Shown here one piece after another: positions 264 to 16,105 of a DNA stretch of 28,259 nt. The position numbers and the translations under genes are program-made. The notes beneath the pieces were generated by a model that saw only the letters and a list, made by a program, of their open reading frames with translations, searched no databases and was not told the origin of the DNA. How positions within the stretch are numbered: the first letter of the stretch is position 1; every line of letters starts with the position of its first letter. The DNA comes from a virus: positions 1-28,259 of the IMG/VR virus record IMGVR_UViG_3300021475_000046; one strand, written 5' to 3'.

Positions 264-779
264 TCAGTCCGATCCTTCGGCCCATGTGCTGCACTTCGTC
301 AACTCGGCGGCGATCCGGGCGGCTTTCTCGGCAGCGATCCGCGATGCCTTGCGCTTGTTCCATTCGTCCTCGCGCTGCAGCCGCAGCTTGTCGGCATAGC
401 GCACGCTGGCCTCGATGCGATCCTCTGCTGCCGCCTCTGCTGCCGCTCTCGTGCGTCGCTTGCGTTCGGCCTCGATGCGCTCCAACAACTCGCCGAGTGA
501 GGGGAACGCAGTTTCGAATTCGCCGCGTGGTGCGATCGAGATCGCGTAGAGCGCATGGTCCACATCGGCCTGCATGTACTTCTCGCCATCGAGGAGGCTC
601 AGTTGCTTCGCATACACGCCGATGTCGTTCGCGCTTAGAGCGGCCTGCCTGCACGCCACCGTCGCCATGAGCGCTTTCTCTAGGCGCTGCACATCCTGCA
701 CGGATCGCAACAGCGGGCGCATGATCTCGCCGCGCTTCTGCAGAACAATTTCGTTGAAAAGTTGCTCTGTCTCGCCCAT
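264..779 (-). CDS. Small protein after replication initiator, possible helicase loader
   Basis: 171 residues. The start is the ATG at 779, four bases after the initiator stop; the frame is open further upstream, but only inside the initiator gene. Residues about 50-100 (Y-x-K-Q-L, then D-V-D-H-A-L-Y-A-I, then A-F-P-S-L-G-E-L-L) follow the helical pattern of phage helicase-loader/G39P-like N-terminal domains, where a Y..L pair, a run of helix and an FPSLGEL-type turn recur. Residues about 105-165 are an Ala/Arg/Glu-rich predicted coiled coil. Position directly behind an O-like initiator is where lambdoid phages carry the loader gene P, and the two genes are surely cotranscribed. The loader role is inference from context and a weak pattern. 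It could equally be an uncharacterised replication accessory protein. Confidence 0.8.
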   Translation of the reverse strand: MGETEQLFNEIVLQKRGEIMRPLLRSVQDVQRLEKALMATVACRQAALSANDIGVYAKQLSLLDGEKYMQADVDHALYAISIAPRGEFETAFPSLGELLERIEAERKRRTRAAAEAAAEDRIEASVRYADKLRLQREDEWNKRKASRIAAEKAARIAAELTKCSTWAEGSD

Positions 780-783
780 GGGA

Positions 784-1866
784 TCACTCCGAAATTCCGT
801 AGGTTTTGCGGTAGTAATCCGGGTCCGCGTGGCGCTCTTGCATCTCCTGCACGAGTCGCCCGGTCTTCGACCACGCGGCCCCCTGACGCTTCTCGGGCTC
901 GTTGTGGTACGGCTTGTCCGCGAAGTAAAACGCGAGTTTTTTGCTCCGGTACGAGTTGAACTCCTTCGGCGAATTTTTCTCGTGCTGCACGATGCAACGG
1001 CGCAAAGCTTCCAGCGCATCGCCGAGTGACGGGAGTTGTGTGACGGGATTGCTGAGATAGTTTTCGATCTCCCACCTCGCCGCCGCGAAGACGATGCTTC
1101 GTTGCGCCGCCGTGATCGTCGCCGCCGCGACATCCGGCTTCGCCCGGTAGTACGGCGAGGCGAGTACGGCCAGCGTCGCGAGGTCGCGGATCGTGGGGTT
1201 CTTCTCCGGGTCGGGCGACACGACCAAGGCGGGACCGAGGGGCGTGTCGGGTTTGTCACGCGGAGCGTCCGGGGGTTCGCAGGATGCCGGTTGCGTGGCC
1301 GGTGGCGGCGTAGGGGGTGACCCCGAAGGGGGGGGGTTTAAGTTCTTTGCTTCTGTATCTGCATCTGCATTATGACCACACGCGTCCACGCCTGTCCACG
1401 TTTGTCCATTTTGTCCACGTGTTTGTCCACGCGAATCAGGTGCTTTTTGTGGACTTTTACGTGGGTTTTTTTGTCCACTTTCTTGTCCACGCTCATCTTT
1501 GATTCGAGCCCTTCTTTTGCGCTCACTTTCGGCCTTGTTAGCCCTGCGTTGGTCCTCGTCTCGGATGCTTCGATACTTGCCGTGATTTAGCAGCGCCCAC
1601 CCGCCGTCAATCTCCTTGATACGCCTACCTTCGAAGTCTTTTGTGCGAGAATCTTCGTCCGGCTCTTGGAAGAGTTTTATCGCCTCGCGAGTCACGCTAA
1701 CCGACACTCTGGCGCGATTGGCAAGGCCCGGAATAGTACCCCACACCCTTCCGTGCCGGTCGGCCATGGCGAGCAATGTGATCCAGACGATGCGAATATC
1801 GGAGGGCTCACACCAGACCGTCGATTCCGTGATCGAGCCAAAAAGTTTAGTAAAAGTGCCGCTCAT
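784..1866 (-). CDS. Phage replication initiator (O-like, helix-turn-helix)
   Basis: 360 residues. The N-terminus (residues 1-105) has the layout common to phage replisome-organiser proteins: F-T-K-L-F, S-T-V-W, R-I-V-W-I-T-L-L-A-M-A-D, then G-T-I-P-G-L-A-N-R-A-R-V-S and G-R-R-I-K-E-I-D-G-G-W, which in the family forms a winged-helix origin-binding domain. A Lys/Arg-rich stretch (about 105-150) and a Pro/Ser-rich linker (about 170-215) lead to a C-terminal helical domain that in such proteins recruits the helicase or its loader. The linker DNA holds the iteron cluster at 1384-1491. The start ATG at 1866 has only a weak AGGCGG upstream. Expected role: bind origin repeats and begin phage DNA replication. 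The family call is firm; the exact partner is inferred. Confidence 0.88.
   Translation of the reverse strand: MSGTFTKLFGSITESTVWCEPSDIRIVWITLLAMADRHGRVWGTIPGLANRARVSVSVTREAIKLFQEPDEDSRTKDFEGRRIKEIDGGWALLNHGKYRSIRDEDQRRANKAESERKRRARIKDERGQESGQKNPRKSPQKAPDSRGQTRGQNGQTWTGVDACGHNADADTEAKNLNPPPSGSPPTPPPATQPASCEPPDAPRDKPDTPLGPALVVSPDPEKNPTIRDLATLAVLASPYYRAKPDVAAATITAAQRSIVFAAARWEIENYLSNPVTQLPSLGDALEALRRCIVQHEKNSPKEFNSYRSKKLAFYFADKPYHNEPEKRQGAAWSKTGRLVQEMQERHADPDYYRKTYGISE
1384..1491. repeat. Iteron cluster, candidate replication origin inside the initiator gene
   Basis: Cores reading GTCCAC (plus strand) begin at 1384, 1394, 1413, 1425, 1473 and 1485, with a GTCCAT variant at 1404 and an inverted copy GTGGAC at 1449. 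The consensus is TTTGTCCACG. Spacings are 10, 10, 9, 12, 24, 24 and 12, that is about one or two helical turns. On the coding strand the same word is read as Gly-Gln, Trp-Thr and Val-Asp, i.e. in all three phases, so the repetition is at DNA and not protein level. An AT-richer stretch with repeated ATCTGC follows at 1337-1378. Lambda carries its ori iterons within gene O in the same manner; origin function here is inferred. Confidence 0.75.
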
Positions 1867-2070
1867 CGGATCGCCGCCTGTTTACGGAAAAGGTGCGTCC
1901 CTGCTAGGCTATTGCGCTCTTTGTTCGGTCGTAGTACAGTCGTTTCAGTCACAACGTAGCTCCTGTTTTTAGCGCAAAAAGGGGTGGCCTTCTTACGAGG
2001 GGGTTGTGTTCAGGGATTCAGATCGAAAGCACCTTGGCAGGGGGAGACGATCTAATCCAGCGAATTTGAT

Positions 2071-2097
2071 AAAGGCCCGGTGAAAACCGGGCTTTTT
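2071..2097 (+). terminator. Rho-independent terminator-like hairpin
   Basis: Stem GCCCGG (2075-2080), loop TGAAAA, stem CCGGGC (2087-2092), then TTTTT. A preceding AAA can pair with the T-run, so some bidirectional function is possible. The T-run is better on the plus strand, yet no plus-strand gene lies upstream. Either it ends a short untranslated plus-strand RNA antisense to the replication operon leader, or it acts on the minus strand (where CCGGGC is followed by CTTTAT) between the two early operons. Confidence 0.7.
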
Positions 2098-2250
2098 GCT
2101 GCCCTAAAAACTCCTTGATTCAACTACGCATCATAGCGCGTTTCACCGATGAGTAATACACAATCGGTAACAGGGGAATCAGCCTGCAAAATGGGGTATT
2201 TGGCGGGTTTAGGCCGCGCACAACGTTACCGTCAGGATCAACGGCGTTAG

Positions 2251-2274
2251 GTAGGTCTATGAGGTTAGACCTGC
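2251..2274 (-). terminator. Hairpin after the leftward early operon
   Basis: Arms AGGTCTA (2253-2259) and TAGACCT (2266-2272) are perfect. They extend to 9 bp with one G-T pair and enclose a six-base loop. It begins 13 bases past the last stop codon of the leftward operon (2287). There is no T-run, so it may be a weak terminator, an mRNA 3' stabiliser or an operator. Confidence 0.4.
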
Positions 2275-2286
2275 TCATCTGCAGCG

Positions 2287-2730
2287 TCAAGGCTCATGCG
2301 GTGCGGTCACAAGCTGCAATCGCATACGCTTCTCGCCCTGGCCGACACTCGCCTGCGATCCACCGAAGCCATCCATAGGCAAAATGCCCTTGTAACAGTG
2401 GGGGCATGTGGGAACGTACTTCCGTCTGCGCCAAGCCTTTTCGACACGCAGCGCGGCGGTGTGAGTGAGCGCCGTAGCCATGTCCTTCTCTAGCGCCTCG
2501 CGTGCGGAATCGAGACGATCTTTGATGGTTTTGAAGTTGCGCACCATGCGCATGAAGGCCCACCATGGATCGATTTGTTTCTCACACTGTTCGCACTCAA
2601 CGGTGCGTCCTGTCTCGCTGTACACGAGGTTGCGATGCGGGCATTCTGTGTCGCCTTGGAAGGTGAGCCCTAGCGTGTCCGGCTTCACCTCAACGCGGAA
2701 ATCGCCGATGTCATAGACCGTCGCCATCAT
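2287..2730 (-). CDS. Cys-pair (zinc ribbon-like) phage protein
   Basis: 147 residues from the ATG at 2730; a second ATG follows directly at 2727 and either may be used. Cys30, Cys46 and Cys49 (C-P-H then C-E-Q-C) and a second pair C109-P-H-C112 can form zinc sites. Between them residues 53-100 are helical with W-W-A-F and an Ala/Glu-rich stretch. The protein is the last of the leftward operon and overlaps the previous gene by 20 bases, which suggests coupled translation. Proteins of this type recur among phage early genes, but I know no defined function. DNA or RNA binding is a guess from the zinc pattern and the neighbouring recombination gene. Confidence 0.78.
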   Translation of the reverse strand: MMATVYDIGDFRVEVKPDTLGLTFQGDTECPHRNLVYSETGRTVECEQCEKQIDPWWAFMRMVRNFKTIKDRLDSAREALEKDMATALTHTAALRVEKAWRRRKYVPTCPHCYKGILPMDGFGGSQASVGQGEKRMRLQLVTAPHEP

Positions 2731-2980
2731 TGGCCCCCTCTGACGGTGCCTCGGCTGCGAGCTTCCCCGCCTCGGACTTGCGCCACGCTTTGAAGAGCTT
2801 GATCTCATCAGGCGTCGCAGGCTGCATACAGTACCGGCATTTCTTCCGCGCCACGCGGCGATGCAGGTAGCGCGTGCGTTCCTTCGCGCACGAATCACTG
2901 CATGTGATCGAGCGCTTTTTCTTACGCTCTTCCGACATCGTTTCACCGCACATCACGCAGTACAAAGTCTCAGTTGTCAT
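2711..2980 (-). CDS. Small Cys-rich putative zinc-finger protein
   Basis: 89 residues, ATG at 2980, overlapping the upstream gene by 11 and the downstream gene by 20 bases. Three Cys groups are visible: C8-x2-C11, C-S-D-S-C near residues 27-31, and C-x2-C near 48-51, embedded in a very basic background (E-R-K-K-K-R-S, R-T-R-Y-L-H-R-R-V-A-R-K-K). This looks like a treble-clef or HNH-type zinc scaffold, but no His-Asn-His catalytic set is present, so it is not called a nuclease. The acidic C-terminus (E-G-A-N-D-G-D-G-L) overlaps the next gene. A nucleic-acid-binding early protein is the likeliest reading; its function is unknown. Confidence 0.75.
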   Translation of the reverse strand: MTTETLYCVMCGETMSEERKKKRSITCSDSCAKERTRYLHRRVARKKCRYCMQPATPDEIKLFKAWRKSEAGKLAAEAPSEGANDGDGL

Positions 2981-3308
2981 CCTCTTCCTCCAAGTCCTTC
3001 ATCGATTTCATAGGGTGCAGTTTTTCTAAATCTTCCAGCGATAACAGGTGGTACTTCGCTCCTTCGGGGATTTGGTAGCTCTCATCGTCCGGGATCGGGA
3101 AGATACGCACCTCGCCACCGGGCGAAAGCTTCTGTAAATTCGCAGCAATGGCAGCGCTCGCAGGCCCAAAGGCTTTGAGATACAACCCGCCACGAAAACC
3201 GTTCTCATCGGCATAGCTCAGGTAAAACCACGACGAAATTCCCTTCGCGGCAATAAATTCATCATGGCAAAGATGGATGGCTCGTTGTCTCTTCTCTTCA
3301 TCGGTCAT
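2970..3308 (-). CDS. Hypothetical early phage protein
   Basis: 112 residues from the ATG at 3308, overlapping the rusA-like gene by 11 bases and the next gene by 11. The N-terminus M-T-D-E-E-K-R-Q-R-A is helical. The middle (S-S-W-F-Y-L-S-Y-A-D, G-G-L-Y-L-K-A-F-G-P) looks like a small alpha/beta fold, and the last ten residues are strongly acidic (D-L-E-E-E-D-D). I recognise no family. It sits inside a compact operon with a resolvase and two Cys-pair proteins, so a role in early DNA metabolism or host takeover is plausible but not shown. Confidence 0.72.
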   Translation of the reverse strand: MTDEEKRQRAIHLCHDEFIAAKGISSWFYLSYADENGFRGGLYLKAFGPASAAIAANLQKLSPGGEVRIFPIPDDESYQIPEGAKYHLLSLEDLEKLHPMKSMKDLEEEDDN

Positions 3309-3726
3309 AGAAACTCTCCACGATCAGGAAGGTGCGCGGATTGTTGGGGTTTTTGCGATCATCCCGGTGCGGCACAACGCGAAAGTCTACATCGTGATCG
3401 GCATGGATCACACCGGCGTACTTCAGGCCGTCGCAGATCGCTTTTCCGGTGTTATCGGGATCTAGCTTCTGCCCTTCCCCGTAGTGAAGATGCGCCTCAA
3501 CCCGATAACGGCAGCGCCGACGCTCACGGTCCTCGCGTGGTGCAACGGTCATACCCCTTGCGAAGATCGCGACTGCAGCTTTCCATGCCTTCGCCTCTGG
3601 TGACAACTTCCGGCCCCGGTGACCATAGCCGTCTTTGCCGGTATACATTGTGTCCTGCCAGTAATGATTCACGCTAGGCGGGAGAAGGTACTCAACCGTG
3701 AATTCAACGTGATGCATGATGGTCAT
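3298..3726 (-). CDS. rusA: RusA-like Holliday junction resolvase
   Basis: 142 residues. RusA enzymes are small dimeric Mg-dependent endonucleases that cut Holliday junctions, in phages usually to resolve replication or recombination intermediates. The signature is clear: D89-P-D91-N92, K95, D99 and D110-x-D112. The spacing D89/D91/K95/D110 equals the known catalytic set D70/D72/K76/D91 of Escherichia coli RusA. The N-terminal P-P-S-V-N-H-Y-W is also typical. It is the first gene of the leftward early operon. Start choice is open: ATG 3726 has no leader to speak of, whereas ATG 3717 (M-H-H) has AGGTC about ten bases upstream. The call is firm. Confidence 0.93.
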   Translation of the reverse strand: MTIMHHVEFTVEYLLPPSVNHYWQDTMYTGKDGYGHRGRKLSPEAKAWKAAVAIFARGMTVAPREDRERRRCRYRVEAHLHYGEGQKLDPDNTGKAICDGLKYAGVIHADHDVDFRVVPHRDDRKNPNNPRTFLIVESFYDR

Positions 3727-3754
3727 GACCTATAGTATATTGTGTAGTCACAAT
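3721..3754. promoter_or_regulatory. Divergent operator/promoter region with two palindromes
   Basis: GGTCATGACC (3721-3730) is a perfect palindrome covering the rightmost start codon of the resolvase gene. ATTGTGTAGTCACAAT (3739-3754) has six-base arms and overlaps the start codon of the rightward regulator gene. Between them lies an AT block offering TATATT (3736-3741) as a plus-strand -10 and TATACT (3739-3734) as a minus-strand -10. Transcripts from either would be nearly leaderless. A ribbon-helix-helix gene next to its own inverted repeat fits autoregulation. The -35 boxes are poor, so promoter strength is uncertain. Confidence 0.5.
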
Positions 3755-3947
3755 GAAGAGAATAAAAAGAGTACCTAACCGGCCCAAGGGCAGTCGCGCC
3801 GAGGTGATGATGCAATCGATCCGAATGACCAAGAGCGACAACCGCAGCATGAAGGCGGCAGCGGCCCGCCAAGGCGTAACCTTCAATCGTTGGGCGACTA
3901 CGATCCTATTGCGAGCGGTCCAGAGAGAGAGTAAAAATGCCGACTGA
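3753..3947 (+). CDS. Small ribbon-helix-helix (Arc/MetJ-like) regulator candidate
   Basis: 64 residues. Residues 19-58 read as a short strand (M-Q-S-I-R-M-T) followed by two helices (N-R-S-M-K-A-A-A-A-R-Q-G-V-T-F-N-R-W-A), the pattern of ribbon-helix-helix DNA-binding proteins. The N-terminus is very basic (K-R-I-K-R-V-P-N-R-P-K). Such proteins bind short inverted repeats as dimers of dimers, and one lies across its own start. No Shine-Dalgarno precedes ATG 3753. An internal ATG at 3810 has GAGG five bases upstream and would give a 45-residue core without the basic arm. It likely controls the divergent early and rightward operons; that role is inferred. Confidence 0.72.
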   Translation: MKRIKRVPNRPKGSRAEVMMQSIRMTKSDNRSMKAAAARQGVTFNRWATTILLRAVQRESKNAD

Positions 3948-4260
3948 AGAGGAAGTTCTCAAAGAAATTTTCGAAAAAGCTACCGGCAAAGTCGCAAGGC
4001 TTCTGGATGCAATGCTGAAGCTGAATGTGGCCGCAGACGCAGAAATTATGAGCGTGAACGTGTTCACGATCGTCGCAGCGTCACATCACGGCAATATCGA
4101 TGGATCACGGCTGCAGCTATGCGATCAGTGCGGCGCGGAAGTTTGGATAGGTCCGGGCTCACAGCGAAAAATCGACGCTCGCGGAAGCCTGCCGACACGA
4201 ATTATCTGTATCCCCTGTTTTTCGGAAGACATTTTGAAGGAGGAGATGAAAGATGCCTAA
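3937..4260 (+). CDS. Zinc-ribbon-like hypothetical protein
   Basis: 107 residues, overlapping the regulator gene by 11 bases, with GAGAGAG before the ATG. The N-terminal half is helical (residues 1-50). The C-terminal half carries C62-D-Q-C65 and C91-I-P-C94, a spacing typical of a small zinc ribbon. It ends K-E-E-M-K-D-A. Its stop codon overlaps the next gene start, and the Shine-Dalgarno of that gene (AAGGAGGAG) lies within its last codons. No family recognised. Presumably an early nucleic-acid- or protein-binding factor. Confidence 0.72.
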   Translation: MPTEEEVLKEIFEKATGKVARLLDAMLKLNVAADAEIMSVNVFTIVAASHHGNIDGSRLQLCDQCGAEVWIGPGSQRKIDARGSLPTRIICIPCFSEDILKEEMKDA

Positions 4261-4429
4261 TTTCCGCGTGTGCTGGCAGGGCGGCGAGGAAGACATCGAA
4301 GCGATCGACGAAGCCGATGCCATCGAAACCGCCAAGGACTATGTAATCTTCGAAACCGAGACGATCGAGGATGACGATGACGATGACGAAGATGAAGACG
4401 ATGACGAAGACGATGAGGGCGACGAATAA
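4253..4429 (+). CDS. 58-residue protein with poly-acidic tail
   Basis: The start ATG 4253 follows a strong AAGGAGGAG. Residues 1-38 (P-N-F-R-V-C-W-Q-G-G, then A-I-D-E-A-D-A-I-E-T-A-K-D-Y) look like a small beta-alpha unit. Residues 39-58 are 19 Asp/Glu out of 20, encoded by a GATGAC/GACGAA simple-sequence run. Such acidic tails occur in DNA-mimic and histone-like-protein antagonists, but also in many unrelated phage proteins, so no function is assigned. Overlap with both neighbours (8 and 17 bases) and the good ribosome binding site argue that it is real despite its size. Confidence 0.7.
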   Translation: MPNFRVCWQGGEEDIEAIDEADAIETAKDYVIFETETIEDDDDDDEDEDDDEDDEGDE

Positions 4430-4694
4430 TAATTGGTGGACCGTCGTTACCTCGGACGCGGATCAGTCGCGCCATGTCCTGCCGACAATCGAGGTTGGTT
4501 TATTTCCGACCGAAGAGGCCGCTCAAGAGATGAAGCGAATGCTCGAAAGCCGCGATGACGTTCTCCACTTCGCGAGCGAGGATGACGAGGACGGCGATAT
4601 TCGCTTTGTGAGCATCGGCCATACCCTCGACAGCAAATGCCCCTGCCAGCCCGTCCAGCGCGGCGATGCGCTGGTTCACAACATGATCCAGTGA
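4413..4694 (+). CDS. Hypothetical small acidic phage protein
   Basis: 93 residues if started at ATG 4413 (M-R-A-T-N-N-N-W-W). The frame is open further upstream to 4371, but only as M-T-M-T-M-T-K generated by the neighbour's GATGAC run, so the later start is preferred. No Shine-Dalgarno is seen, so translation is probably coupled to the preceding gene, which ends at 4429. The region W-W-T-V-V-T-S-D-A-D and G-L-F-P-T-E-E-A-A-Q-E-M-K suggests a small alpha/beta fold. C-P-C-Q near the C-terminus adds another close Cys pair. No family recognised. Confidence 0.68.
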   Translation: MRATNNNWWTVVTSDADQSRHVLPTIEVGLFPTEEAAQEMKRMLESRDDVLHFASEDDEDGDIRFVSIGHTLDSKCPCQPVQRGDALVHNMIQ

Positions 4695-4700
4695 GGACAA

Positions 4701-4994
4701 ATGAGCCGACGAGTCGAAGCGCAATGGTGTCCGTCATGCTTCGAAAGAATCGATATGACGCCGCAGATCGTAACGCTCCGCGATCTAGTCACGCACGAGG
4801 CTAAAGCCCGACCCGGTGATTACACCGTTTGCATTAAGTGCGCGGCTCTGCTGCGTTTCGGACGGAAGATGCTGCTGAAGATCATCGACGCGTCCGAGGT
4901 TGAAGACAAAGCTACCCGCGCCAAGCTGCTCACCGTCAGCAGGACCATCAAGGAACTACGGAAAGAGAACCCTATCAATGTCTGGAAAAACTGA
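4701..4994 (+). CDS. Zinc-ribbon-like hypothetical protein
   Basis: 97 residues, ATG 4701 preceded by GTGAGGA. Cys pairs C10-P-S-C13 and C44-I-K-C47 frame a short loop region, followed by a basic helical C-terminus (R-T-I-K-E-L-R-K-E-N-P). This is the common design of tiny phage zinc-ribbon proteins. It comes two genes before the terminase, where small-terminase subunits often lie, but nothing typical of a TerS (a helix-turn-helix plus oligomerisation helices) is visible. Function unknown. Confidence 0.74.
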   Translation: MSRRVEAQWCPSCFERIDMTPQIVTLRDLVTHEAKARPGDYTVCIKCAALLRFGRKMLLKIIDASEVEDKATRAKLLTVSRTIKELRKENPINVWKN

Positions 4995-5193
4995 GAATGA
5001 AATGCTGATGACACACGTCTTTCGCGGGGGAACCTGCGGCGTCGATCGCAAGGGTACGAATTGCCGCGTGCTGCGGCGTTTTGGCAATATGGCTCAGATC
5101 GAATTCGAGGACGGTTATAAGATCATCGTCACCGGCTACCTTCTACGGAGGATCGGCAAAAATGACGAACTTCGACTGGCGGCGTCTTCGTGA
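4978..5193 (+). CDS. Hypothetical 71-residue protein overlapping terminase
   Basis: The chosen start ATG 4978 has GGAAAGAG upstream and overlaps the previous gene by 17 bases. In-frame ATGs at 5002 and 5008 are alternatives. The C-terminal part (N-C-R-V-L-R-R-F-G-N-M-A-Q-I-E-F-E-D-G-Y-K) resembles a small beta-barrel of the SH3/KOW kind by its G-x-x-C-R-V...A-x-I-x-F-x-D-G pattern. It overlaps the terminase start by 32 bases, and the terminase ribosome binding site lies inside it. Function unknown; a small-terminase or packaging accessory role is only a positional guess. Confidence 0.66.
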   Translation: MSGKTENEMLMTHVFRGGTCGVDRKGTNCRVLRRFGNMAQIEFEDGYKIIVTGYLLRRIGKNDELRLAASS

Positions 5194-6892
5194 TCCGAAT
5201 CAGGAGAACGGCATCAACCGGCAGTGGCGCACCGATCTAACCGCGCTGGTGATGGCTGACGACGAGCTTCGCGAGGCTGGTCGCCGCGTGTGTATGAACA
5301 ACCTTCTCGGCCTGTCCTATGTCCTGGGCTACTGCCTGATCGATGAAGACGTCCACCGCGAGGCGATCGCCTTTTTCCCGAAGCATGATCCCGAAAAAAC
5401 TGTCTCCGATCTCGGAAAAGGACTCAAGCGCCGACGCTCTCTGCTCTATCCGCGCAACACCTTCAAAAGCACGCTCAATATCGCATTCTGCGTGCAACTC
5501 ATCCTCTGCTACTTCACAACGATCTCGATCCTGATCCTCTCAGGCTCGAAAGAACTGTCTTACGCGTTCGTCGATCAGGTGGCGAGCTTCTTCATACGCA
5601 ATGGGCGCAGCGTGACCCTCTTCCAAGCCCTCTTTCCCGAGTTGTGCGTCGATCGCTGGCGCAACTCTGGATGGTTCACCGCAGCGATCCGGCAGAGCGA
5701 GCCCGAGATCATCGAGCCCCTGATATGGGCAAACTCCGTCGATTCCGCGACAACCGGATGGCATCCCGACGCCTTCATCTGTGATGACGTCAACAACAAT
5801 CGCAATTCGCGCAAATACACCTCTCGCGCTCGCCTGACGAAAGAGTACAAAATGGTGCGCAAGGTGCTGAAGCCGACCGGCATCGAGATCAAGATCGGCA
5901 CCTGCTACGGACCCGGCGACATCTTCAACGATGAACTGCTGACGGCGCGGCCCGGAAGCTATGAACGCGTCATCAAGCCCGCGATGCGGCTCAAGAGCGG
6001 CGAACGGCTCGATGCGAACGGCTTTCCCGATGAGAACGATGTGGAACTGCTGATGCCCTCGATTCTCAGTTACGAAATGCTGCGCGAAGAGTACGAATCG
6101 GACTATGAATCCTTTATGTCGCAGTACATGATGGACAACTACGGAGCCTCAGAGATCGTCTTTGACGAGCGCGAGATGCTGCAGGCGATCATGCACGAGG
6201 ACCGCATCCCCCTCGAAGGCAGATATCACATTGCCTTTCGCTTCCCCTGCCTCTCGCGCAAGTGGGGTACGCTCTCTGGTGCAGTTGGCATCGAGCACCT
6301 AAACCGCATCTTCATCGTGCAGATCATTCAGGGCCACTACAAGCCTTCCGTGATGGCGAAGATCATCCACGAGACGGCGCGGCGCTATGGCCTGCACCGG
6401 ATCACCGCAGAAGAGAGTCCCGGCGCTCGTTCCTACCAGAGCGCGATCGAGAACTATGCGCTCACAACCGGCTGGCCGCTCTCGATCCGATGGATACCGT
6501 TCGAAGAGGATGAATCGGTGCGCGATACGGAGATTCGCAACCTTGAGGCGCTGATCGCCACCGGACGGCTCTACTTCTCCGCAGCGGTCAAAACCAAGCC
6601 GCTCATCACCGGCTTCGTCGAGTACGGAATGCAGGCAGAGACGGGACTTCCCGATGTGGTGCGGCACATCACGAGTAACCTGCCGATCTCGATCGCCGCG
6701 ACGGATCAGGAAGACGACGATGCTTGGCGAATGCAGCGCGAGCGCGATCACTTCAACATGGTCTACCAGCGCGGCCCGTATGCCCCGGCAGAGCCCGAGC
6801 CTGAAGAGATCGCCGAGGAAGAGCCCTCGATCGAGGACCAACTTTACATGGAGAACGGGCTCGAAATCCTGATCCCCGGACTGGAGCGCTAA
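5162..6892 (+). CDS. terL: Terminase large subunit
   Basis: 576 residues. The start is ATG 5162 (M-T-N-F-D-W) with GGAGG upstream; the frame is open further left but only inside the previous gene. The N-terminal ATPase has a deviant Walker A P97-R-N-T-F-K102-S-T, a Walker B D203-A-F-I-C-D208-D209 and a coupling motif G-T-C-Y-G near 246-250. This is the packaging motor that pumps DNA into the prohead and cuts concatemers. The C-terminal RNase H-like nuclease (about 350-510) keeps E417/E418 and D498 but lacks the usual Asp in its first strand, which here reads I-A-F-R-F-P near 357-362. It ends with an acidic tail (P-E-P-E-E-I-A-E-E-E). The family is clear; nuclease competence is doubtful. Confidence 0.93.
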   Translation: MTNFDWRRLRDPNQENGINRQWRTDLTALVMADDELREAGRRVCMNNLLGLSYVLGYCLIDEDVHREAIAFFPKHDPEKTVSDLGKGLKRRRSLLYPRNTFKSTLNIAFCVQLILCYFTTISILILSGSKELSYAFVDQVASFFIRNGRSVTLFQALFPELCVDRWRNSGWFTAAIRQSEPEIIEPLIWANSVDSATTGWHPDAFICDDVNNNRNSRKYTSRARLTKEYKMVRKVLKPTGIEIKIGTCYGPGDIFNDELLTARPGSYERVIKPAMRLKSGERLDANGFPDENDVELLMPSILSYEMLREEYESDYESFMSQYMMDNYGASEIVFDEREMLQAIMHEDRIPLEGRYHIAFRFPCLSRKWGTLSGAVGIEHLNRIFIVQIIQGHYKPSVMAKIIHETARRYGLHRITAEESPGARSYQSAIENYALTTGWPLSIRWIPFEEDESVRDTEIRNLEALIATGRLYFSAAVKTKPLITGFVEYGMQAETGLPDVVRHITSNLPISIAATDQEDDDAWRMQRERDHFNMVYQRGPYAPAEPEPEEIAEEEPSIEDQLYMENGLEILIPGLER

Positions 6893-14190: not shown

Positions 14191-14211
14191 CTCGTGGTAC
14201 GGAGATCACCG

Positions 14212-15228
14212 ATGGGCAACTCTACGACAACCCTTCAAATGATCGTCGATAGCGTCTCCACTATTGGCGATCTCCGTCCCATTTTGCTCAGTACGGGAGG
14301 CTTCTCCCAAGAGCCCGCCGTCACCATGGGAAACGATGTGATGATGGAGCTTCTGAGCGAGCGTTTTCCGTGGAAGTGGAATCGCTTCAAGCTGCCGCCG
14401 TTCTACATCAATTCCAGACAGCAGGATTACCCGATGGTCCGCGAGCGCGGCATCGGATGGCTGGAAAACGGCTTCCGCGTCGATGCCAACTCGCCGCATT
14501 TCCCGCCGTCCGTCGCTCCGCTGGTGGTTGTGCGTGATCTTCCCGTATCGCGTGCCGACGCAGGCTGGCCGGTGCGGGCGTGCTGGCTTCCTAACGATCA
14601 ACTGGAATGGGGAACATGGCCGGGGGCGAACGTTACCTTCTACGACCCCAAGGGTCACCCGAGTATGCCGTCGAATCCATGGCAGGCTATCGAGATCGCA
14701 GACGGCTCTTTGCTCAAGCTGACCAAGTACGGCATCACCGGATCAACCGCGCCAACCGTGCCAGAGCCGCCGACTGACGCGCCTGACGACTATCCGATCG
14801 GCGTCGTGATCGAAGACGGCACGGTGGAGTGGACCGTATGCGATCCCAAGGCGCAGGGCATTCGTCTGTTTCCGCAACCGCCTGATTCGAGCGCGAACAT
14901 CTGGCTGATTCGCCTCTTCGCACAGCGCAAGGCACAGCCGATCACCGACATCACAAAGTTTATCGAGCCCATTCCCGACGATCAGGTGAAGTGGTTCCGC
15001 GATGGCTTCATCGCCTACGGGCATCGCTACTCCGATACAGATAAGGTCAGAGCCCGCTACCCGCAGATGAAGTCGGAATGGCTGGCGGCGATGACGGCGG
15101 CGACGAAGGAAGCGGATCGCGAAGAAGAGTCCTATGGCTTCTTCCCCGATCGTTCGATCATGGCGGGCGATGTAACCGCAGAACCCGGCCCCGGCAATCC
15201 ATTCGCACGCAACTGGGGAGGTGCGTGA
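14212..15228 (+). CDS. Head-to-tail adaptor, long paralogue
   Basis: 338 residues from ATG 14212 (GGAG upstream); a GTG at 14194 in frame is less likely. Marks: F-P-W54-K-W-N-R-F, Q71-D-Y, G82-W-L-E, then in the C-terminal part A-Q-P-I-T-D-I and P253-I-P-D-D, closing with a charged helix. These recur with the same order and near-equal spacing in the protein encoded at 15386-16105, so the two are paralogues. This one has about 100 extra residues including a G-x-T-G-S-T-A-P...D-G-T-V-E-W module (174-210), also found in the nozzle-like protein. In podoviruses this slot holds the gp11/gp4-type ring joining portal and nozzle. The adaptor call rests on context and size. Confidence 0.8.
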   Translation: MGNSTTTLQMIVDSVSTIGDLRPILLSTGGFSQEPAVTMGNDVMMELLSERFPWKWNRFKLPPFYINSRQQDYPMVRERGIGWLENGFRVDANSPHFPPSVAPLVVVRDLPVSRADAGWPVRACWLPNDQLEWGTWPGANVTFYDPKGHPSMPSNPWQAIEIADGSLLKLTKYGITGSTAPTVPEPPTDAPDDYPIGVVIEDGTVEWTVCDPKAQGIRLFPQPPDSSANIWLIRLFAQRKAQPITDITKFIEPIPDDQVKWFRDGFIAYGHRYSDTDKVRARYPQMKSEWLAAMTAATKEADREEESYGFFPDRSIMAGDVTAEPGPGNPFARNWGGA

Positions 15229-15389
15229 TGGGCTTCACCAAGCGATGCGCCATGGTCATAGAGGGAGTACGGTGCAGCAACAATATCCCCGATAAAGACG
15301 AGATTTGTTCTGCGTGCTGCGAGGCTTTAGAGAAAGCCATCGCCGAAGAATATGCCATTGCTGCACATGAATCGGGAGGTGCGTGATGG
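15216..15389. repeat. 16-bp direct repeats flanking a 52-codon gene
   Basis: GGGAGGTGCGTGATGG occurs at 15216-15231 and again at 15374-15389, 158 bases apart. Each copy contains a Shine-Dalgarno, a TGATG stop/start junction and the codons for a terminal Gly-Gly-Ala. Recombination between the copies would remove the small gene exactly and leave the long adaptor joined to the short adaptor by the same TGATG junction. Confidence 0.85.
15228..15386 (+). CDS. 52-residue Cys-rich mini-protein
   Basis: The start ATG 15228 overlaps the adaptor stop (TGATG) and has GGGAGG upstream. Cys7, Cys16, Cys27, Cys30 and Cys31 (R-C-A-M-V, R-C-S-N, E-I-C-S-A-C-C-E-A-L) give a compact zinc-knuckle-like pattern followed by an acidic helix. 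It lies between two paralogous adaptor genes and within 16-bp direct repeats, so it looks like a separable cassette. No family recognised. Whether it is a virion part or an unrelated passenger cannot be told from the sequence. Confidence 0.72.
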   Translation: MGFTKRCAMVIEGVRCSNNIPDKDEICSACCEALEKAIAEEYAIAAHESGGA

Positions 15390-16105
15390 CGGCAACGCGA
15401 AACATTATGTCGAGCGCTCTGTTTGCGCTGCCATTCCTCGGATATCAGCCCGTCGATATCTCGAATGGGGAGCCCGCGCTGCAGGCGGCGAATCTCGTCA
15501 AGCAAACCATCTTAGGCGCACCTTTTGTATGGCCGTGGAATCGAACAACCTTCGAATTCCCGATCTCGAAAGAGGATGGGCAGGATTACTACACCGATAT
15601 TCCGGCAGATCAACCCTTCGGCTTTCTCGAAAAGCCATGGCTCACCGATGTCAAGGGGAAGAGCACAGAAATCACCGTCGTGCTCTCGCTCTCACAGGAG
15701 AGCAACATTCAACGACCGGCATCGATCGCGGCGCAGGACATCGAAGATGACGGCAACGTGATCTTTCGCATGAACGCGATCCCCGATCAGGCTTACACCC
15801 TCGGAGGTTCCTATCAGCGTGCGCCTATTCAAATGACCTCGCTCGCTTCGTTATGGTCACCGATTCCCGATCGCTATGCATACATCTACGACTGGGGTTT
15901 TCTCTCGGTCATGGCGCTGCTGACGAAAGATGTACGCGTCCCACTTTTCGCGCAACGCTTCGTCTCGCATCTTCTCGGAGCGCAGGACGGATTGAACGCG
16001 ACGCAACGCAACATCTTCATCGGCAACTGGCTCAACCTTCTCACCGAGCCCACACGTGCAGCGCAGTCAGCCGCGCTCGCGACGCAGGCCAGAGGGGGGA
16101 TGTAG
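15386..16105 (+). CDS. Head-to-tail adaptor, short paralogue
   Basis: 239 residues from ATG 15386 (a GTG one codon earlier overlaps the previous stop). W49-P-W-N-R, Q66-D-Y, G79-F-L-E, R-A-P-I-Q-M-T-S-L and S-P159-I-P-D match the longer adaptor. In both proteins the W-x-W-N-R to Q-D-Y distance is 17 residues. Helices at the N-terminus (about 25-45) and C-terminus (about 185-230) flank a beta-rich middle, as in ring-forming adaptors. It directly precedes the nozzle-like gene, one base apart. Two tandem adaptors may form stacked rings, or one may be a diverged duplicate. This is inferred; no direct family name is claimed. Confidence 0.78.
   Translation: MAATRNIMSSALFALPFLGYQPVDISNGEPALQAANLVKQTILGAPFVWPWNRTTFEFPISKEDGQDYYTDIPADQPFGFLEKPWLTDVKGKSTEITVVLSLSQESNIQRPASIAAQDIEDDGNVIFRMNAIPDQAYTLGGSYQRAPIQMTSLASLWSPIPDRYAYIYDWGFLSVMALLTKDVRVPLFAQRFVSHLLGAQDGLNATQRNIFIGNWLNLLTEPTRAAQSAALATQARGGM

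Follow-up and report, generated by a model that had tools for sequence, protein, structure and literature searches.

A 52-codon gene framed by exact 16-bp copies of a stop/start junction between two adaptor-like genes of a phage

It is a long-running question whether genes gained precisely at gene boundaries owe this precision to selection after random joins or to recombination that was targeted to boundary homology. The locus described here raises the question within a window of 28,259 bases (the whole stretch analysed), a virus record that encodes an SU10-like portal and a large terminase. The phage probably comes from soil, given that its closest named relative is a phage of Tunturiibacter from soil. 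Two adaptor-like genes of the window are separated by one small gene, and identical junctions stand on either side of the latter:

14194-15228, plus strand: adA, upstream adaptor-like gene (ORF), 344 aa, C-terminus NWGGA-stop
15216-15231, plus strand: J1, junction copy 1 (exact match), Shine-Dalgarno-like GGGAGGTG and TGATG stop/start overlap
15228-15386, plus strand: 52-codon ORF with five Cys (CX8CX10CX2CC), the presumed inserted gene, missing in relatives
15374-15389, plus strand: J2, junction copy 2 (exact match), same letters as J1
15386-16105, plus strand: adB, downstream SU10 adaptor-like gene, 239 aa, sub-threshold match to PF24175

adA and adB are diverged paralogues, as is evident from their profile comparison with hhalign (window 14194-16105; probability 98.9, E 2.5e-17). 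adA alone had no family match. The match of adB to PF24175 (E 1.8e-4, 22.4 bits) lies below the curated cutoff of 27, and three of seven adB family members tested matched the same profile (best E 2.4e-7).

The original prediction for this DNA had described exact 16-bp repeats on both sides of a Cys-rich gene of 52 codons, each repeat carrying a complete stop/start/ribosome-binding junction, and both statements hold. GGGAGGTGCGTGATGG occurs exactly at 15216-15231 and 15374-15389, with no third exact copy in the 28,259-base record; when up to three mismatches are allowed, the window has three matches against 0.39 expected, a number that no shuffle reached. The A of TGATG is common to the TGA stop and the next ATG in both copies (TGA 15226-15228 and ATG 15228 in J1; TGA 15384-15386 and ATG 15386 in J2). 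The direct repeat takes in the 3' end of adA (16 bp exact), and the GGA-stop of adA recurs at the end of the small gene (ESGGA-stop). Upstream of the 16-mer the likeness continues as a longer imperfect repeat of 27 nt with 81% identity (15205-15231 and 15363-15389).

The framed ORF encodes MGFTKRCAMVIEGVRCSNNIPDKDEICSACCEALEKAIAEEYAIAAHESGGA, a protein with five cysteines for which no homologue was found in viral contigs, phages, plasmids, solved structures or Pfam. Its G+C content is 0.51-0.53, compared with 0.55-0.61 in the flanks. The cassette has 142 bp of unique sequence; no donor of it was found, and because it encodes no mobility function, the earlier word 'self-contained' for the gene-gain route was too strong. 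That the gene arose from neighbouring DNA duplicated in tandem was rejected, as nothing else in the window resembles it credibly, and so was a structured RNA, as the cassette folds no better than shuffled sequences (z-score -0.35).

We consider it probable that the small gene is foreign, that it was inserted right at the adA/adB translation junction and that a 16-bp copy of the junction was left on each side. Such a gene would have entered at the stop/ribosome-site/start junction between the adaptors, with the upstream adaptor keeping its own C-terminus and stop; the old junction would have become the start of the new gene, and a second junction copy would form its end and offer its ribosome site to the downstream adaptor. 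With a junction copy on each side of the insert, translation of all three genes remains possible, and a deletion from one repeat to the other would bring back the empty state. The most likely step would be recombination, or template switching during replication, where the junction shares a short homology with a similar junction on the incoming DNA; this may have been homologous recombination at 12-16 bp. As the searches yielded neither a donor nor a homologue of the 52-aa protein, duplication of the target site and arrival of a matching junction with the gene cannot be distinguished.

Scans with adA and adB gathered 101 distinct loci having both genes. The two mostly abut in the window's clade (gap of -4 to +4 bases, one junction); thus, the adaptor pair with a single junction and without the small gene, for which the original prediction had proposed to look, is present in many relatives (L006, whose single junction reads CAGTGGGGAGGCAGATAGATG, L130-L133, L165 and others), all of them at most 61% identical to the window. 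Because even the nearest relative reaches only 61% identity, the empty state just before the window's insertion is not seen; if the window did gain its gene, the site of a close empty relative is expected to read ...AACTGGGGAGGTGCGTGATGGCGGCAACG. The window's nearest relatives on the tree are empty except for L166, which has a different insert; in outgroups such as Tunturi_3 the adaptors have nothing or unrelated genes between them. Inserts at this site occur in 8 of the 47 tree members of the window's clade, nearly all of them mutually unrelated, and the filled state needs at least seven changes on the tree of 77 members.

These distributions bear on a reading in which the 52-codon gene is ancestral and was lost in the relatives by deletion between direct repeats. 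Repeats of 16 bp that lie 158 bp apart are a substrate for deletion, which would leave one clean junction; however, the gene was absent from every relative found, the site is empty or occupied by unrelated genes in nearly all close relatives and in the outgroups, and losses would have had to occur many times in parallel. An ancestral gene is thus already disfavoured, and we give this reading hardly any credence. For insertion at the junction, the direction in the window would be gain.

The close-clade inserts have a lower G+C content than their flanks and no sequence in common except for the RNA of L240 and L170. Their assignments are as follows:

L159, between the adaptors: weakly D12-methyltransferase-like gene
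L160, between the adaptors: Mom-like gene (weak)
L155 and L166, between the adaptors: ORFs, no assignment
L008, between the adaptors: antisense ORF
L240 and L170, between the adaptors: structured RNA

Antisense ORFs lie between the adaptors of L008 (7011-7574, minus strand; 187 aa, AP2-type repeats by eye, no Pfam match) and of L269 (7996-8889, minus strand; C-terminal HNH endonuclease match, PF01844, E 1.2e-4), and Cys-rich antisense ORFs similar to that of L269 are found in L191 and L192. In a second clade (L003 5721-5885, L004 5818-5997 and others) nearly all members have a Lys-rich protein of about 45-70 aa between the adaptors, sometimes accompanied by further inserts; two members tested gave no Pfam match for this protein. 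The adaptors of L005 are separated by 5.4 kb with about ten ORFs (490-5916), ClpP-like and HNH-like ones by eye among them. L170 also carries a group I intron (3505-3718; Rfam RF00028, 73 bits).

The cassette might be, or be the remnant of, a transposon-like or homing element that duplicated its target site. The repeats do resemble target-site duplications of 12-16 bp, and the antisense HNH ORF of L269 and the antisense ORF of L008 (AP2-like by eye, without a Pfam match) occupy the same site. Against such an element, the window cassette with its 142 bp of unique sequence contains no mobility gene, the close-clade inserts share no termini, the framed inserts are mutually unrelated, and the length and sequence of the repeat follow the local junction. 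We regard an element of this kind as very improbable.

A repeat at a translation junction might also result from convergence, in that ordinary illegitimate recombination placed the gene and selection then polished both junctions towards a strong ribosome site with a TGATG overlap. Functional constraint acts on part of the 16 bp (GGAGG, TGATG), and exact copies of the 16-mer are common, being present in at least 119 viral-contig stretches, among which no donor was identified; some convergence may therefore have occurred. For 38 insert-bearing members the own pre-insert and post-insert junctions were compared, with the junctions of other members as the null. The own match is 16 in the window, 14 in L240 (TGGAGATGATATGC), 10 in L159 and at most 7 in the rest, while the longest match in 1406 between-genome J1/J2 pairs is 10 (p=7e-4 for own matches above 10). 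Among 1991 non-adjacent within-genome junction pairs of the family the longest match is 12. Given these two maxima, the window repeat exceeds the shared ribosome-site consensus. Framed inserts also repeat C-terminal codons of adA (GGA-stop, GWR-stop and, in L159, GWRL-stop, the last of which matches the empty relative L152). A junction repeat is seen in two to three of the eight close-clade inserts; the five to six others are without it, and gain through a junction repeat is thus one route among others.

The clearest view of the step is offered by a different junction of the same family, where the empty L147 and the filled L150 align over 10.6 kb with 98.2% identity. A gene of 211 codons is missing in L147 and present in L150, and the junction copies number one and two, respectively. 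The empty site is GGAGCGGGAGCATGAGACC and the filled one GGAGCGGGAGCATGAAGA...GGAGGCGGGAGCATGAGACC; in longer form, L147 reads GAGAGGAGCGGGAGCATGAGACCACCGC without a gene, and L150, L145 and L146 read GAGAGGAGCGGGAGCATGAAGATTTT, the 211-codon gene and GGAGGCGGGAGCATGAGACCACCGC. At the insertion the two alignment blocks of the pair have 15 bp in common. Divergence between the two is too small for polishing, which argues against convergence at this junction. A search for a donor of the gene returned only the same three contigs (L145, L146 and L150) and remote relatives, and as no further contig was found to carry it, gain is the simpler direction. The second junction copy of L150 deviates from the target in a single G, and this leans towards a copy that was borne by the donor or altered later. 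The window repeat probably stems from the same kind of event. A further framed gene is found in L244, where CAGGAGGCGGAT stands on both sides of a gene for a Cys-rich protein of 58 aa; L154 and L161, which are 81-84% identical in the upstream gene, are empty there and have one junction. A 13-bp repeat in L151 was dropped as a framed insert because it belongs to a tandem paralogue.

Junction-framed genes are in excess both in this family and in unrelated phages. When L145 and L150 were taken as one and in-register matches framing one gene were counted, 4 of 284 adjacent junctions in the family shared at least 12 bp, as against 1 of 1991 non-adjacent ones (p=0.001; p=0.007 without the window). 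The counts were 10 of 408 and 9 of 3198 (p=1e-5) in 119 loci of unrelated phages, which had been chosen because they contain the 16-mer once, and the excess persisted when repeats overlapping the picking motif were dropped (p=4e-4). All these junction counts are approximate owing to alternative start choices and related contigs; filters against overlapping starts were applied, and L244 was missed because of its start choice. The search for other genes framed by the same junction, proposed along with the original prediction, was thereby answered in the affirmative, some of them being framed by GGAGGTGCGTGATG itself (L096, L047, L023/L027). In L010, L067, L113, L095 and L090 the repeat reaches into C-terminal codons. 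No relatives of L096 and L010 were found among phage records.

In favour of convergence, some non-adjacent pairs in unrelated phages do match over 12 bp or more (the 9 of 3198 above). By contrast, non-adjacent pairs never exceed 12 bp in the family, nor cross-genome pairs 10 bp at the adA/adB site, and the repeats of L010, L067, L113 and L095 extend to C-terminal codons that lie outside the ribosome site. We consider convergence unlikely as the origin of the window repeat, albeit deserving of some weight. What had been foreseen as a gene-gain route using translation junctions as homology is thus supported to a large extent by the L147/L150 pair, the empty relatives and the excess of framed genes, but not as the sole or main route, given the close-clade inserts that lack a repeat.

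An RNA-like element, strongly structured and covarying, occurs at several different late-gene junctions:

L240 8012-8346, L170 6682-7000 and L158 7822-8079: RNA-like element at late-gene junctions
L289 3386-3558 and 5436-5605: two copies of the element in one contig, at late-gene junctions

Fold z-scores range from -5.0 to -6.7 for three copies, and 17 of the 50 pairs of the consensus show compensatory changes on both sides. A covariance model of the element finds the second L289 copy with an E of 1e-31; the copies of L240 and L170 gave no Rfam match. The copies also preserve an uninterrupted reading frame of about 100 codons between the flanking junctions, so that a coding role is conceivable. 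A head motif, TTTGATACAAT, which resembles an extended -10 promoter, starts the element in L158 (7822) and a hairpin-rich insert in L159 (7717) that is located after adB.

It is tempting to speculate that tailed phages use translation junctions generally as docking sites, and that insertion with duplication of the local stop/ribosome-site/start motif is a recurrent way for them to gain small genes and structured RNAs, a possibility that we put forward tentatively. If so, each insertion would regenerate two usable junctions and hence two new docking sites. The signature of targeted recombination is repeated in one family, includes one near-identical filled/empty pair and is in excess in unrelated phages. 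Because it recurs and its excess can be measured, the question of how genes are gained at boundaries becomes countable in existing genomes.

Several known systems invite comparison. T4-type phages contain mobile regulatory cassettes, PeSLs (Arbiol et al. 2010 and Comeau et al. 2014, as listed in PMC4503421). As in the window, intergenic regulatory DNA would serve as homology for the shuffling of small genes; by contrast, PeSLs reportedly carry a promoter and a stem-loop, whereas the homology of the window is a translation junction, and its cassette does not fold better than shuffled sequences (z-score -0.35).

The mycobacteriophage mobile element MPME1 is conserved, measures about 440 bp, and has inverted repeats and a 6-bp addition (PMC3029335). 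MPMEs resemble the present cassettes as ultra-small insertions in phage genomes but are conserved and have inverted repeats, whereas the cassettes are mutually unrelated and without shared ends. In lambdoid phages, too, short homology at gene boundaries has been proposed to guide the exchange of modules with the genes unharmed (Susskind and Botstein 1978; Clark et al. 2001; cited after PMC3029335 and PMC3233612). There the short conserved boundary sequences are common to different phages; here two copies of the junction enclose one new gene in the same genome.

The closest parallel is found in mycobacteriophages of Cluster I. Gene 68 of Island3 encodes an orphan of 85 residues and closes with a repeat of the 3' end of gene 67; in Brujita gene 68 is absent, and the repeated sequence is present as one recombinant copy (Pope et al. 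2011, PMC3029335). These authors proposed that general recombination acted on the two repeats, in one direction or the other, and linked the case to recombination at boundary sequences (Clark 2001; Susskind and Botstein 1978). Both cases feature a small orphan gene whose end repeats that of the gene before it, and a relative with one copy and no gene. In Island3 the two genes share 60 bp at their 3' ends (18 residues), while the repeat of the window is 16 bp and almost exactly the stop/ribosome-site/start junction. The window case is of the same kind as the published Island3 gp68, with a shorter repeat that is centred on the stop/start junction.
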